From: Thermacetogenium phaeum DSM 12270
GTDB lineage: Bacteria; Bacillota; DSM-12270; Thermacetogeniales; Thermacetogeniaceae
Length of the DNA: 64,000 nt
NCBI RefSeq assembly: GCF_000305935.1
Contig: NC_018870.1
Coordinates: 1,009,942 to 1,073,941, forward strand
Direction of reading: 5' to 3'
In this document: positions 492 to 62,813 of the stretch, in pieces
Layout: each line of letters opens with the position of its first letter
Numbering within the stretch: the first letter of the stretch is position 1
The notes under the pieces: generated by a model
Database searches by the model: none
The model's input: only the letters and a program-made list of their open reading frames with translations
What the model was told of the DNA's origin: nothing
Translations under genes and position numbers: made by a program

Positions 492-637
492 TCTTCCCAC
501 CTCCGTCTTAAAAATGTTTTGTTTTTATGAAACCCTTATTATTATGCAGGGGGATGGTGAAATTTATTCGGGGGACTTCGAAGGGGGAATAGAAATCACG
601 ACGATGGGGGAGAATAACGGTCAAGGAGGTGACAGCG

Positions 638-22618: not shown

Positions 22619-22647
22619 GGATAAAAAACTTTAAGGCTCAAATACTA
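22619..22647 (+). promoter_or_regulatory. Possible sigma-G promoter of the SASP genes
   Basis: GGATA (22619-22623), 17-base spacer and AATACTA (22641-22647) approximate the sigma-G boxes GHATR and CATNHTA with one mismatch in each. Supported mainly by the gene type behind it. Confidence 0.35.
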
Positions 22648-22673: not shown

Positions 22674-22937
22674 ATGGGACAGGGACAAAAGCGCAATAAG
22701 CTTCTCGTACCCGAAGCCAGCAAGGCCATGTATCAGTTCAAGTATGAAATGGCCAATGAAGTAGGTATTTCCAATCAGATTCAGGGTGATTATTGGGGTT
22801 ATATCTCCTCCCGTGACTGCGGCGCCGTTGGAGGAGCCATGGTGCGGCGCATGATCCAGACGATTGAACAGCAGATTGCCCAACAGGGAAACCCCGGGCA
22901 GACCATAGCCAGCACCAACACCGTTCAGACCACCTAA
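22674..22937 (+). CDS. Alpha/beta-type small acid-soluble spore protein (copy 1)
   Basis: 87 residues after AAAGGAGGG. NKLLVPEASKAMYQFKYEMANEVGI and QGDYWGYISSRDCGAVGGAMVRRMI are the two conserved SASP blocks. These proteins coat spore DNA in the forespore, protecting it from UV and heat, and are degraded at germination; the GPR cut site lies in KYEMANEVG, with Met where Ile is common. The C-terminal tail (NPGQTIASTNTVQTT) differs from copy 2. Copy 2 follows 33 bases later, and the gpr protease gene faces the pair. Confidence 0.95.
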   Translation: MGQGQKRNKLLVPEASKAMYQFKYEMANEVGISNQIQGDYWGYISSRDCGAVGGAMVRRMIQTIEQQIAQQGNPGQTIASTNTVQTT

Positions 22938-22970
22938 TTGATTAAACCAACGGAAAGGAGGAGGTTTTCA

Positions 22971-23213
22971 ATGGGTCAAGGACAAAAGCGCAATAAGCTT
23001 CTCGTACCCGAAGCCAGCAAGGCCATGTATCAGTTCAAGTATGAAATGGCCAATGAAGTAGGTATCGCCAACCAGATTCAGGGTGATTATTGGGGATACA
23101 TATCTTCAAGGGATTGTGGTGCGGTTGGGGGGGCCATGGTACGGCGCATGATTCAGCAGTACCAGCAGAGCTTGGCCGGCCAGAACCCACAAACCACAAC
23201 CACAATCCGATAA
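22971..23213 (+). CDS. Alpha/beta-type small acid-soluble spore protein (copy 2)
   Basis: 80 residues from ATG 22971 behind GGAAAGGAGGAGG. The first 60 residues are identical to copy 1 except S to A near position 33. The coding DNA is also nearly identical over the first 90 or so bases and diverges at synonymous sites later, so this is a tandem duplication possibly homogenised by conversion. Same role as copy 1; the tail is QQYQQSLAGQNPQTTTTIR. Confidence 0.95.
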   Translation: MGQGQKRNKLLVPEASKAMYQFKYEMANEVGIANQIQGDYWGYISSRDCGAVGGAMVRRMIQQYQQSLAGQNPQTTTTIR

Positions 23214-55162: not shown

Positions 55163-56406
55163 TGGACAAAATTGTAGCCCTCAAGCACCTCGATCGATGT
55201 AGCAAGTGTGGCAGCTGCCAGGCGGTGTGCCCCCTTTACGCCGAGACCAGGATGGAACCGCTTGTTGCCAGAGGGAAGCTTTTTCTCATTCGGAATTACC
55301 TGGAAGGGGAACTGGGTATCACCCGCAGGATGAAGGAGCTGATGAGCCTCTGTCTTTTGTGTAAAGCCTGCACCGCTCAGTGTCCCAACGGCATTCCTGT
55401 GGATCGACTGGTTTTGGGGATCCGGCAGGAGATTGCCAGAGAAAAGGGGATTTCTTTCGTCAAAAAGAACGTCTTCCAGCACCTGCTCCAGAACAACGGC
55501 AGGCTCACCATGGCGGCTAAGATGGCATATCTTTACCAAAAGAGCGGTTTGCAGTGGCTTGCGCGCAGGAGCCGGATCCTGGAGTTCTTGGGGGGAAATC
55601 TGGCGCGCAAGGAAGAACTGCTGCCGCAGATGGCCTCCAGACCCTTTCGCAGCCAGGTGCCGCAGCATTTTCCCTGTAACAGGCCGCGGCTTCGGGTGGG
55701 CTATTATACGGGCTGCCTCACCAATTATGTCTTCCCGGCTACCGGGCACGCGGTGATCGACGTGCTCCGCCGCCACCAGGTGGAAGTCGTGGTGCCCGAA
55801 CAGTGGTGCTGCGGTATTCCTGCTCTGGCCAGCGGGGACGAGGAAGCAGCAGCTAAACTGGCTCAAAAGAATGTCGAATCCTTCTTAAAGTCGGGAGTGG
55901 ACGCAGTTATCGTGGACTGCGCTTCCTGCGGCAGCATGCTGCGCTATTATGTTGAGCTGTTGGGAACAGAGGAAGCCCAAAGATTTTCGGAGAAGGTGCT
56001 GGATATCAGCCAATTCCTGGCCGATGCAGTGAGCTTTCAACCGGGAGAGAGGGAGGTGCCTCTCGTAGTTACCTATCATGACCCCTGTCACTTGAGAAGG
56101 GGGCAGGGGGTTGCTAAAGCTCCTCGCGACCTGATTAAGTCTTTGCCGGGGGTCATATTCAGGGAAATGAAGGAGGCCGATCGTTGTTGTGGAGCCGCCG
56201 GTTCCTTTAATTTAGCTCATTACGATTTGGCAAACAGGATCGGGCGCCGGAAGGTGCAAAACATCCTCCAGACGGGGGCGCAGGCGGTGGTAACGGGGTG
56301 CCCTTCCTGCATCATGCAGATCAGTCATCTCCTTGCCCGGGAAAATGCGCCTGTAAAAGTTATGCATATTGCGGAACTGATCAGCAGAACTTACTTGAAA
56401 AAATAG
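55162..56406 (+). CDS. glcF: (Fe-S)-binding oxidoreductase, GlcF-like
   Basis: 414 residues. Two 4Fe-4S motifs: CSKCGSCQAVCPLYAETR (near 12-29) and CLLCKACTAQCPNGIPV (about 66-82). Two CCG domains follow: YTGCLTNYVFP, CCGIPALASGDEEAA; YHDPCHLRRGQG, DRCCGAAGSFNL, as in heterodisulfide reductase subunit B. It accepts electrons from GlcD and probably passes them to a membrane or soluble carrier. No GlcE is present, so this is a two-subunit form. Confidence 0.9.
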   Translation: MDKIVALKHLDRCSKCGSCQAVCPLYAETRMEPLVARGKLFLIRNYLEGELGITRRMKELMSLCLLCKACTAQCPNGIPVDRLVLGIRQEIAREKGISFVKKNVFQHLLQNNGRLTMAAKMAYLYQKSGLQWLARRSRILEFLGGNLARKEELLPQMASRPFRSQVPQHFPCNRPRLRVGYYTGCLTNYVFPATGHAVIDVLRRHQVEVVVPEQWCCGIPALASGDEEAAAKLAQKNVESFLKSGVDAVIVDCASCGSMLRYYVELLGTEEAQRFSEKVLDISQFLADAVSFQPGEREVPLVVTYHDPCHLRRGQGVAKAPRDLIKSLPGVIFREMKEADRCCGAAGSFNLAHYDLANRIGRRKVQNILQTGAQAVVTGCPSCIMQISHLLARENAPVKVMHIAELISRTYLKK

Positions 56407-56545
56407 TTCAACCTTCTTAGCATCAACACGACAGAGATTGCTAGTTAACTTAATTAGAGCTCTGGGCAAGAGTGTACGGCCGTCAAAAGAGTGAGAGTCT
56501 CGGAATGAGCCGATATGTACGATATGTAATGTAAGGGGGGGTGTT

Positions 56546-57148
56546 ATGTTTTCCGCTGTATATGAAGAAGCAAGGTGTGCCTTTGCCGCCCGCTCACCTG
56601 GCGAAATGGCAGACTTGAGTGGAGCCATTTATGACTCCTCTGAAAAAACCATTCATGTCGCCTATTTCGGCAGGACATATCAGGTTTCCCACCCCGAGGG
56701 GACGATCAGCAGTCCCTACGACCCGGTAGAGTTGCCGCTTGAAGAAAAGGCTCTTATTCTTCAGTACCTTTCCCAGGCCACGGGGGAACCTTTAAGCGGA
56801 CGCTGGATCGCCTATGCGGAGCTGCCTAACGGTATGCTGCACAATCAGCCCTTTCGGGTGGAAGCAGTAGAACCACTGGCCGATACCTTCGGCAGCCGGC
56901 CCGAAAAGCTGGTGGAAGCGGCACACTACCTGGGAGGTTGGGAAATTGAGATCGGCGATGCCGCGGTGGTAATACCTGTTTTTAAAAGGCTCTATGTTGC
57001 CGTTGTTATATGGGTTGCCGATGACGAATTTCCTGCCAGTGCCAACATGGTGTTCGATGCCGCCGCTCCCAAGTATCTTTCAACGGCAGCCCTCTATGTT
57101 CTGGGATCGGTGGTTACAAAGCGCATAAAGAATGTGGTTGACCTTTAA
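56546..57148 (+). CDS. DUF3786 domain protein
   Basis: 200 residues. The ordering of YFGRTYQVSHPEG, PLEEKALILQYLSQATGEPLSGRWIAYAELPNG and DAAVVIPVFKRLYVAVVIWVADDEFPASANMVFDAAAPKYLSTAAL matches DUF3786, found in anaerobes with corrinoid/acetyl-CoA pathways. No cysteine cluster or membrane segment is evident. The function is unknown. GGGGGGTG precedes ATG 56546. Confidence 0.8.
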   Translation: MFSAVYEEARCAFAARSPGEMADLSGAIYDSSEKTIHVAYFGRTYQVSHPEGTISSPYDPVELPLEEKALILQYLSQATGEPLSGRWIAYAELPNGMLHNQPFRVEAVEPLADTFGSRPEKLVEAAHYLGGWEIEIGDAAVVIPVFKRLYVAVVIWVADDEFPASANMVFDAAAPKYLSTAALYVLGSVVTKRIKNVVDL

Positions 57149-57151
57149 TAG

Positions 57152-57181
57152 GTATAAAACGGCCCTTCCTTTATCATACTA
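57152..57181 (+). promoter_or_regulatory. Sigma-G-like promoter
   Basis: GTATA (57152-57156), 18-base spacer and CATACTA (57175-57181) fit both sigma-G boxes (GHATR and CATNHTA). It is 31 bases upstream of the carbohydrate-binding protein gene, suggesting forespore expression. Confidence 0.5.
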
Positions 57182-57212
57182 AGCGTAACGTTAAGTACAA
57201 GGAGGGGTTTTT

Positions 57213-57518
57213 ATGTATAATTTGCACCCAGGGTTTACAATATCGCCGGTTCCCAGCAAAGTTGGCGAAAAATGTAAGATCAGGTATCACGGGCTCCTAG
57301 CCACCTCGGGTGCTGACCAGGTGTGGTTGCGTACCGGATACGGGACGGGACCGTGGCAGAATATTTATGATTACCGTATGAATAAGGTTGGTCCCAACGA
57401 GTGGGAGCAAACTGTAGAAATCACCAGGGAAGGGCAATTTAACTTCTGTTTCAAAGACAGCGCCAACAATTGGGACAACAACAACGGCCTCAACTGGAGT
57501 TACACCATCAGAAGGTAG
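57213..57518 (+). CDS. Small carbohydrate-binding-module protein (CBM25/53-like)
   Basis: 101 residues forming a single beta domain: SKVGEKCKIRYHGLLATSGADQVWLRTGYGTGPWQNIYDYRMNKVGPNEWEQTVEI and FKDSANNWDNNNGLNWSYTI match starch/glucan-binding Ig-like modules in which the Trp residues stack on sugars. There is no signal peptide and no catalytic domain. AAGGAGGGG precedes ATG 57213. A sigma-G-like promoter suggests a spore-related role, which is inference. Confidence 0.75.
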   Translation: MYNLHPGFTISPVPSKVGEKCKIRYHGLLATSGADQVWLRTGYGTGPWQNIYDYRMNKVGPNEWEQTVEITREGQFNFCFKDSANNWDNNNGLNWSYTIRR

Positions 57519-57555
57519 TTTTTCCTACTCGGATGCTGCTTTTCATGAGGTTAAA

Positions 57556-57583
57556 AGAAAGAGGGGCTGGTACCCCTCTTTTT
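57556..57583. terminator. Bidirectional terminator
   Basis: AAAGAGGGG and CCCCTCTTT pair around CTGGTA, flanked by an A run on the left and T run on the right, between converging genes. Confidence 0.85.
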
Positions 57584-58061
57584 AATGTAATGATTTCTTG
57601 AAATCGTCGAGATTGTTGATGCCAAGGATCTTGCGCAGCTCCTGCTGCTGGCTTTCGTCCATGAGTTCATCAACAGATAGCGTATAATCGATGAGCTTTT
57701 CCGATATGTAGACGGGAGCCCCGGCTCGGAGTGCCAGTGCAATGGCATCACTCGGACGGGAGTCCAGGACGAGCTCTCCTGAGACGGTTTGAATGTACAT
57801 CTCCGCGTAGTAGGTGCCGTCTCTGATATCGTTGATAACAACACGGCGTATGGAAGCGCCTAAATTGTCGCAGAAGCTTTTCATGAGGTCATGGGTCATC
57901 GGTCTGGGGGTGATCACACCCTGCAGAGCCATGGCGATAGATTGGGCTTCGAAAGGCCCGATTGAGATTGGAAGGGCACGTTTTTGCGATTCGTCAACCA
58001 GCAGCACCACTGGGCTCAATGAGAGATCAAAGGCGATCTCCTTCACCTGAACCGGAATCAT
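57582..58061 (-). CDS. Bifunctional nuclease family protein (DUF151)
   Basis: 159 residues. MIPVQVKEIAFDLSLSPVVLLVDESQKRALPISIGPFEAQSIAMALQGV and LVLDSRPSDAIALALRAGAPVYISEKLID are the DUF151/BFN signature. Members have been reported to have DNase and RNase activity; the physiological substrate is unclear. The C-terminal DELMDESQQQELRKIL tail is typical of Clostridia. GGAGGAGG precedes ATG 58061. Downstream of comM, 43 bases apart, probably one unit. Confidence 0.88.
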   Translation of the reverse strand: MIPVQVKEIAFDLSLSPVVLLVDESQKRALPISIGPFEAQSIAMALQGVITPRPMTHDLMKSFCDNLGASIRRVVINDIRDGTYYAEMYIQTVSGELVLDSRPSDAIALALRAGAPVYISEKLIDYTLSVDELMDESQQQELRKILGINNLDDFKKSLH

Positions 58062-61799: not shown

Positions 61800-62257
61800 T
61801 GGCCCTCAGCGCGGAGAACTTTCTTTCAATGATGTTGTTGTCGTTTACCATAATGATCAGTTGCATCATGTTATTCTTAGAAATTTTTTAAAATAGCTTC
61901 TAATAGAGACAAATATTTGGTAAAATTGGCAATGGAACAGGTTTATTACCCCCGGGTTGGTTTAGCACCTGTAGACCGTTTTTATACCTAACAGCAGTTA
62001 GGTTTCATTATCTGCAAAACGTTTTTCGAAAAAGGAGCCCTGGGAGGAATTATCTGCCATCTTTCAGGTCAAGAGTTGTCATGATAGTTCATGAAAACAT
62101 AGTAGCTGCAAGAGAAAGAGATTTCCGGAACTTTCGAATGAGAAGATTATTTCTGTGCAGAATTATGTGCTTCGAAATTTTTGCCTCGGAAAGCATTATA
62201 GCTTTCCGCGGAAACCGTTGTGCGGTAAGACTTGGAACCATCCAGTCCGATGCGGGT
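61800..62257 (+). promoter_or_regulatory. Presumed CRISPR leader region
   Basis: No gene is supported in this stretch. The part 61850-62060 is AT-rich with runs such as AAATTTTTTAAAATAG, as leaders often are. The repeat polymorphism in the array puts the leader on this side. No precise promoter is assigned. Confidence 0.4.
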
Positions 62258-62813
62258 GTTGCACTCATAACCCCGATGAAAAGGGGACTGAATTAATTGT
62301 GGTGAACAAGCATGGGAGCTGAGGGTGAAAAGGTTGCACTCATAACCCCGATGAAAAGGGGACTGAATTTGTCGTTCCGTTCCAGTAAAATGAGTCAAAT
62401 CCAACGTTGCACTCATAACCCCGATGAAAAGGGGACTGAATTTCGATCTGTGTCTGCAACTCATCAAACAGCTTTTGCTCGTTGCACTCATAACCCCGAT
62501 GAAAAGGGGACTGAAATCTGGGCAACGAACCGTTGAAGATTTACGTTCAACTCCTGTTGCACTCATAACCCCGATGAAAAGGGGACTGAAATTTGCCGAC
62601 AAAAAAGCGAAAGGGAAGCTGACGTTGGAAGTTGCACTCATAACCCCGATGAAAAGGGGACTGAAATCTCGTCATCCACCGCACCGAAAAGACGACATAT
62701 CAAGTTGCACTCATAACCCCGATGAAAAGGGGACTGAAATGTTATCTACGCCGTGCTCTTTGAGTATTTCCACGAAGTTGCACTCATAACCCCGATGAAA
62801 AGGGGACTGAAAG
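62258..62813 (+). CRISPR. CRISPR array, 8 repeats and 7 spacers
   Basis: Repeats of 37 bases start at 62258, 62333, 62406, 62481, 62556, 62631, 62704 and 62777. They begin GTTGCACTCATAACCCCG and end GGGGACTGAAAT, with CCCC/GGGG able to pair around GATGAAAA. Spacers are 36-38 bases. Position 36 is T in repeats 1-3 and A in repeats 4-8; the last repeat also ends in G. The ACTGAAAT-type 3' end acts as crRNA tag in type I-B and III systems, so those are the likely types. No cas gene lies in the window. Confidence 0.97.

Follow-up and report, generated by a model that had tools for sequence, protein, structure and literature searches.

The locus examined here poses two questions: in which cell compartment a small, single-domain carbohydrate-binding protein is produced, and what it binds there. 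The gene lies in the window, by which we mean the whole 64,000-nucleotide stretch of the Thermacetogenium phaeum DSM 12270 genome that was analysed; T. phaeum is described as a spore-forming rod (PMC3551663). The protein, a member of the CBM53 family, is probably made only inside developing spores, because its promoter, which is of a spore-specific type, also appears to encode a strand that would block the translation of transcripts started upstream. The best explanation, which we favour with somewhat better than even confidence, combines forespore transcription by sigma-G, a lock on the ribosome-binding site of read-through RNA, and a cytosolic CBM53 protein that binds alpha-glucans. The features of the locus are as follows.

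56546..57148, + strand: DUF3786 gene, co-directional upstream neighbour and presumed source of read-through RNA (Pfam DUF3786, 1.3e-54)
57152..57156, + strand: –35 box GTATA, fitting sigma-G GHATR (sequence pattern and orthologue alignment)
57162..57171, + strand: putative 5′ arm, GCCCTTCCTT, of the hairpin predicted for read-through RNA; lies within the promoter spacer (fold and duplex calculations, pair counts)
57175..57181, + strand: –10 box CATACTA, fitting sigma-G CATNHTA (sequence pattern and orthologue alignment)
57199..57208, + strand: Shine–Dalgarno sequence (SD) AAGGAGGGG plus one T, the predicted 3′ arm of the hairpin (fold calculation)
57213..57518, + strand: CBM53 gene, encoding a 101-amino-acid, single-domain protein that is cytosolic by sequence (Pfam CBM53, AlphaFold2 model)
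57561..57583, no strand assigned: terminator-like hairpin GAGGGGCTGGTACCCCTC with a T run (read by eye; weak)

The CBM53 gene and the conservation of its promoter

The window protein scored 37.1 bits (E = 3.8e-9) against Pfam CBM53 (PF16760), above the cut-off of 27.6, and 23.3 bits against CBM_25 (PF03423), under the cut-off of 27.3; NCBIfam provided no name for this protein or for the DUF3786 protein. No hydrophobic leader was visible in its sequence (MYNLHPGFTISP...), as judged from the sequence alone. The terminator-like hairpin downstream sits between the CBM gene and a convergent bifunctional-nuclease gene, and its assignment is weak because the terminator rule reported no terminator in 56400–57700.

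The consensus for sigma-G is GHATR-N17/18-CATNHTA. The GTATA and CATACTA boxes, separated by an 18-nt spacer, fit it exactly, and the whole site spans window positions 57152–57181. The original prediction had read them as sigma-G boxes, correctly placed before a 101-residue, single-CBM protein with no signal peptide; these readings stood, as did the expectation that the boxes would be conserved in orthologues. The window contained two exact matches to GHATR-N18-CATNHTA, where 0.25 would be expected (at least two in 2 of 100 shuffles), and the whole 2,939,057-base genome contained 18, against six for the reversed pattern; in view of the latter control the match alone is modest evidence. The other exact site in the window (540–569, minus strand) lies upstream of a gene encoding a YflT-domain (stress) protein and shows no lock. 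The promoter evidence is nevertheless strong, because the boxes are conserved in orthologues.

When 101 genomes, including that of T. phaeum, were searched, a homologue of the CBM protein was present in 57. The original prediction had called a forespore glucan-binding protein unusual, which holds less well given this frequency and the second copy, with a similar promoter box, described below. The family sample comprised 20 genomes, of which 17 (T. phaeum included) had a whole close orthologue; in G013 the close orthologue lay in two pieces at contig ends, and G006 and G014 had the paralogue only. The other close orthologues were 66–84% identical to the window protein. The exact pattern was found 59–72 nt before the start codon in 14 of the 17 orthologues, and two more (L011 and L012) differed by one base, with AATACTA as the –10 box. 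Among the 17 same-family loci, L025 alone had no sigma-G-type box upstream; about 270 extra nucleotides separate its DUF3786 and CBM genes. We also scanned a wider set of 82 loci, consisting of L001, L002, and 80 loci from genome contigs, 14 of which were further copies of close orthologues. With G also accepted as the final base, a site occurred within 350 nt upstream in 20 of the 82 loci (L094, L095, and L118 among the 82 had <350 nt of upstream sequence). The control density, 11 matches in 734,717 nt of the remaining sequence of these loci and of their reverse strands, predicts 0.005 per 350 nt.

The gene upstream was also conserved. In tblastn searches, a co-directional DUF3786 gene preceded the CBM gene in 16 of the 17 loci, at a distance of 67–86 nt from the CBM start in 15 of them and 338 nt in L025; it was not detected at L012.

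Complementarity between the promoter spacer and the Shine–Dalgarno sequence

The promoter spacer contains GCCCTTCCTT, which is complementary to the SD of the same gene, AAGGAGGGG(T). From this we predict a ribosome-binding-site lock within the promoter spacer, a second layer of control that was absent from the original prediction. The T. phaeum segment from the –35 box to the start codon folded at –20.5 kcal/mol with the SD arm paired, and a segment that began 5 nt beyond the –10 box folded at 0.0. Across the 16 promoter-bearing loci, the predicted sigma-G transcript leaders folded at 0.0 to –7.2 kcal/mol, that is, they were not fully open everywhere.

Judged from the aligned sequences, the pairing between spacer and SD is clearly conserved, and within each species the two are matched to each other. 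The mean duplex energy in the 16 loci was –16.6 kcal/mol for native combinations versus –13.4 kcal/mol for between-species combinations, and none of 20,000 permutations, which ignore relatedness, was as good as the own-species pairing. The native spacer outperformed shuffled spacers at p ≤ 0.03 in 15 of the 16 loci (these shuffles likewise ignore relatedness); in the remaining locus, L026, the box was present and the pairing weak (p = 0.125), and L025 had neither box nor lock. Paired cells made up 91.1% of the alignment of the CBM loci, against 51.8–73.2% when the strands were slid. Cells with changes on both sides of a pair numbered 11 against 3.7 in shuffles, with 0 of 500 shuffles as high in a count that ignores relatedness. 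Two measures that are more robust to relatedness gave weaker results: four pairs showed two-sided change against 2.0 (19 of 500 shuffles as high), and there were 10 further pair types against 9.7 (279 of 500 shuffles as high).

In the mechanism that we propose, sigma-G would transcribe the CBM53 gene in the forespore, and two superimposed signals, the promoter and the lock, would confine expression to that compartment. In read-through RNA from DUF3786, the transcribed spacer would base-pair with the SD and hide it. RNA from the sigma-G promoter would begin downstream of the 5′ arm (a placement that depends on a transcription start inferred from the promoter) and would therefore leave the ribosome-binding site open. 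The two layers would thus form an AND gate, in which only forespore-started RNA presents an accessible ribosome-binding site. Forespore genes can stand behind genes that are expressed elsewhere, and read-through could leak them. A spacer antisense to its own ribosome-binding site would be a compact solution, searchable in any spore-former, and one short DNA element would enforce compartment specificity in both transcription and translation.

The logic of such a lock is already known from Bacillus subtilis sigG and phage T4 lysozyme, and the CBM53 lock would work like these. In B. subtilis, a hairpin has been proposed to block the translation of sigG read-through RNA from spoIIG (PMC5942855). 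As described there, sigG (spoIIIG) resembles the CBM53 gene in having an adjacent forespore promoter and a hairpin that cannot form in RNA from that promoter; it differs in encoding a sigma factor and in having a hairpin of 20+ pairs, whereas the gene here is a CBM53 (or SpoIID-like) gene and the 5′ arm falls within the 18-nt promoter spacer. For T4 gene e, long early transcripts are reported to be poorly translated, with the SD in a helix, whereas the 5′ arm is missing from late-promoter transcripts, which are translated (PMC3014915). The likeness to gene e (lysozyme) and I-TevI, as far as they are described, is the SD-hiding helix present in long transcripts only; the phage genes are under temporal control, whereas control by cell compartment is proposed here. 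In the literature searched, the prevention of forespore read-through was described mainly for sigG, and we found no earlier report of this CBM gene or of a spacer–SD arrangement beyond sigG and the phage, which is not proof of absence.

The hairpin could instead be the transcription terminator of DUF3786, lying near enough to the CBM gene for its 3′ arm to double as the SD, with no translational regulation. No other terminator was seen, by eye or with the terminator rule (56400–57700), between the DUF3786 stop codon and the CBM gene, and in nine of the 16 loci (L018 being read by eye) the SD was followed by a run of at least three T, as a terminator would have. This explanation is weakened, however, because the other seven (L013, L015, L016, L017, L020, L021, and L022) keep the pairing without such a run. 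Moreover, the loop of about 14 to 40 nt (27 nt in T. phaeum) is long for a terminator, the terminator rule did not report this hairpin either, and in the SpoIID-like gene described below some of the T stretch lies inside the stem. We consider a terminator unlikely and prefer a lock that acts on translation.

The probable ligand and the alpha-glucan gene context

CBM53 and CBM25 are alpha-1,4-glucan-binding families, and CBM53 is also known from starch synthases. The AlphaFold2 model of the window protein (pLDDT 90.6, pTM 0.83) consisted mostly of beta strands, forming a beta-sandwich, and its top fold match was the N-terminal region of BoGH13ASus (Z 9.5, 93 residues, 2.7 Å), a Bacteroides GH13 amylase. 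Glucan binding cannot be read from the fold alone, because many beta-sandwich proteins with unrelated functions, such as filamin and fibronectin type III, scored similarly, at Z values of at least 8. More specifically, a sequence profile built from 30 homologues matched the solved CBM25 modules 2laa, 2lab, and 2c3v. These starch-binding modules are parts of amylases, whereas in the window protein, a match to CBM53, the module makes up the entire protein, which is encoded in a transcription unit of forespore type. Residues W48, W87, and W95 were invariant in the 30 homologues, and W48 and W87 aligned with tryptophans of the Bacillus halodurans CBM25 that are presumably binding residues. The position aligned with a CBM25 histidine, which we also take to be a binding residue, is Arg in the T. 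phaeum protein.

Most likely, the CBM53 protein would act in the developing spore as a coat on, or a tether for, a reserve resembling glycogen. This is the simplest role for a protein that lacks a catalytic domain and a visible export signal. The original prediction had named a storage polysaccharide or a spore wall glycan as the target; the family and the related structures favour the former, as a storage alpha-glucan, over the latter, and since the family binds alpha-glucans, a storage glucan is the likelier target. An analogy for such a tether is provided by PTG (protein phosphatase 1 regulatory subunit 3C), whose glycogen-targeting CBM21 module has a similar beta-sandwich (Z 8.8, rmsd 2.9, 91 residues). 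PTG differs in that its module belongs to another CBM family and in that it binds protein phosphatase 1, whereas we know of no protein phosphatase 1-like partner of the window CBM53 protein. Multivalency may be needed, because the B. halodurans CBM25 alone is reported to bind granular starch weakly, with a Kd of about 30 micromolar (PMC3398936).

The glucan role that we propose is based on family membership and on gene neighbourhood, the latter concerning a second gene of the family.

G000:C1:942322-942609: second CBM53 gene (paralogue), with glucan-synthesis genes next to it

The paralogue, a glycogen-synthase-like glycosyltransferase gene, and a gene for an NTP-transferase (nucleotidyltransferase)/phosphoglucomutase fusion stand in a row (L124:8209-12878). 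The paralogue is divergent from a GerA-type germination operon, and about 5 kb further on, the other strand carries a GH57 branching-enzyme-like gene. The paralogue also passes the CBM25 (PF03423) profile cut-off, with a score of 38.6. A GT5-type gene was found in 56 of the 57 genomes with a CBM homologue versus 20 of the 44 without one, and in 36 of 37 versus 20 of 44 when the T. phaeum family was set aside; these counts ignore phylogeny and include the glycosyltransferase gene adjacent to the paralogue itself. The sporulation marker SpoIVA was present in 56 of the 57 genomes and in 33 of the 44 others, again ignoring phylogeny.

Upstream of the paralogue, G[TC]ATA-N17 to 19-CATACTA was found in 13 of 14 same-family genomes and was absent at L134. 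The spacer was 17–18 nt in 10 loci; in L126, L130, and L132 it measured 19 nt, beyond the range that is usual. Sigma-F is a candidate here because most of the paralogue boxes are preceded by G. The lock was scanned for in the 13 loci with a box, in six of which the start was resolved and in seven not; in those six, the spacer–SD pairing was weak (mean –10.8 versus –8.4 for shuffled spacers, p = 0.05–0.53), and a lock at the paralogue is not claimed. One paralogue site (L171) that reached p = 0.012 was discounted, as it had been scored against a wrong, out-of-frame ORF.

A protein made in the forespore might nevertheless have a spore-wall or exported glycan as its ligand, or might have lost binding and be structural. 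The arginine at the histidine-aligned position and the many unrelated beta-sandwich proteins at Z values of 8 and above are compatible with this, and no gene for a catalytic partner shares the transcription unit of the CBM gene. On the other hand, CBM53 and CBM25 bind alpha-glucans, all three tryptophans are invariant and two of them align with tryptophans in the CBM25 of B. halodurans, the protein shows no export signal, and the paralogue stands among glucan-synthesis genes. We therefore regard another ligand or a structural role as improbable and retain the cytosolic alpha-glucan-binding protein.

More broadly, clostridial forespores may have an alpha-glucan programme of their own, and some forespore genes may have converged on promoter spacers antisense to their SDs, a proposition that we put forward tentatively and with less than even confidence. 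If it is true, the programme would consist of the stand-alone CBM53 tether and a forespore-type CBM53/glycosyltransferase/nucleotidyltransferase operon, the converged genes would be those behind co-directional vegetative genes, and the spores of these syntrophic and acetogenic clostridia would be predicted to carry a protein-decorated alpha-glucan reserve.

Sigma-factor assignment and recurrence of the spacer pairing

The sigma-G (forespore) reading of the window promoter is well supported by the variation among the 16 promoter-bearing loci. The –35 box was G-[TCA]-ATA, with columns 1 and 3–5 invariant, and the –10 box was [CA]ATA[CA]TA; the variation falls almost only where the sigma-G consensus permits it, with the exception of the first –10 base, which is A in two loci. 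If another factor (mother-cell sigma-E or vegetative sigma-A) used the promoter, the protein would not be forespore-specific. The first five bases of CATACTA are also those of the sigma-E –10 element, CATACAnT, and some orthologues have CATAAT, which differs from TATAAT by a single base. However, a sigma-E reading needs A at –10 position 6, which was T in all 16 loci; the fifth base was C or A and the sixth and seventh were always TA, position 2 of the –35 box was T, C, or A, which is the sigma-G pattern, and a scan with the sigma-70 rule found no site in 56400–57700. Use of the promoter by either of these factors is thus quite improbable. With regard to sigma-F, sites of this factor in Clostridioides difficile are reported to keep a G upstream of the –10 box, and sigma-G sites an A downstream (PMC3789822). 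The base preceding the –10 box was T or C in all 16 loci, which argues against sigma-F, and the base after it was A in 12, G in two, and T in two.

The T. phaeum genome contains sigma-gene fragments whose best matches are SigG, SigE, and a SigF-like family. A 69-amino-acid fragment matched SigG best, and the genes with the SigG-like and SigE-like fragments adjoin each other. SpoIVA and SASP genes are also present. Window positions 22619–22647 and 22695–23174 cover two tandem SASP genes together with GGATA-17-AATACTA upstream of the first, which can serve as an internal standard for sigma-G sites of the T. phaeum genome.

Turning to the lock, we surveyed 22 forespore-type sites in T. phaeum, 11 of which had a recognisable SD and ORF. 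A lock was found in only two of the 11, the window gene (L152; p = 0.017, and 0.000 in other runs) and a SpoIID-like gene (L161; p = 0.003).

G000:C1:2841757-2842722, minus strand: SpoIID/LytB-like gene (L161/L181), from the sigma-G-type promoter scan of the genome

This gene did not reach the cut-off of the equivalog model for true SpoIID, and the spacer of its sigma-G-type promoter pairs with its own SD. In several loci, an S4-domain-like gene was recognised by eye upstream and in the same direction. The arrangement was looked for in 18 loci, from T. phaeum and 17 further genomes. Thirteen of them, including L198 from outside the family, had a promoter, SD, and ORF by a rule that allowed a somewhat looser –10 box; the promoter was exact in 10 of the 13. 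Native duplexes averaged –20.3 kcal/mol versus –17.3 kcal/mol for cross-species ones in these 13 loci (0 of 20,000 permutations, ignoring relatedness), and the pairing reached p ≤ 0.03 in each of them. Paired cells amounted to 96.2%, against 39.4–75.8% when slid. There were six cells with two-sided change against 1.3, above every shuffle in a count that ignores relatedness, three pairs with two-sided change against 1.2 (25 of 500 shuffles as high), and four further pair types against 3.7 (297 of 500). The five loci left out were L189, in which a similar segment with a 17-nt spacer and TATACTA was seen by eye; L192, which was unresolved; L193 and L194, in which the arrangement was not seen at the SpoIID-like gene; and L195, which had an exact promoter match and no ORF by the rule. 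L199–L201 were missed by the script, and L202–L210 lay outside the set.

That the boxes and the complementarity arose by chance, or as a by-product of a pyrimidine-rich spacer pairing with any purine-rich SD, is very improbable: although the promoter pattern also has its reversed matches in the genome (six against 18), between-species pairing is already appreciable for both the CBM and SpoIID-like genes, and the two pair-count measures are weak in both families, own-species pairing exceeded between-species pairing in every permutation in each family, the cells with two-sided change lay above every shuffle in both, and the promoter boxes are conserved.

The lock was restricted among the remaining sites. 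Four with a co-directional upstream ORF (L170, L215, L217, and L224) had none, and a general rule placing a lock behind every co-directional upstream gene fails on these. Nor was a lock found at three sites with a divergent upstream ORF (L148, L160, and L221) or at L151, and the SASP gene L216 paired weakly (–5.3, p = 0.043). At the promoter of the T. phaeum sigG gene itself (L005, around 1311–1385), the spacer is, like that of B. subtilis, partly complementary to the SD, and the pairing is not significant (–14.1 versus –10.6, p = 0.108).

Outside the family, none of the 57 contig loci with enough upstream DNA, counted after the removal of L094 and L095, had a full sigma-G match. Fifteen of the 57 had a site with one mismatch, whereas such a site was present on the reverse strand of two, and shuffling predicted 4.0 (Fisher p = 0.001); this suggests that forespore control of CBM homologues may extend beyond the family. 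Among a further 12 outside-family loci, two from the same genus (L032 and L033) had an exact site. In these members of another family, GCATA-18-CATACTA stands right after a terminator-like hairpin and precedes three tandem CBM53 genes adjoining a GT5-type gene. The L032 spacer paired mildly with its SD (–14.4 versus –9.4, p = 0.032); this locus should need no lock because the terminator-like hairpin stands directly before it.

Elsewhere in the window, at about 62150–62790, the peptide fragments ALITPMKRGL and SPFHRGYECN are repeated in several frames, suggesting a CRISPR array; 11 CRISPR loci have been described in the T. phaeum genome (PMC3551663).
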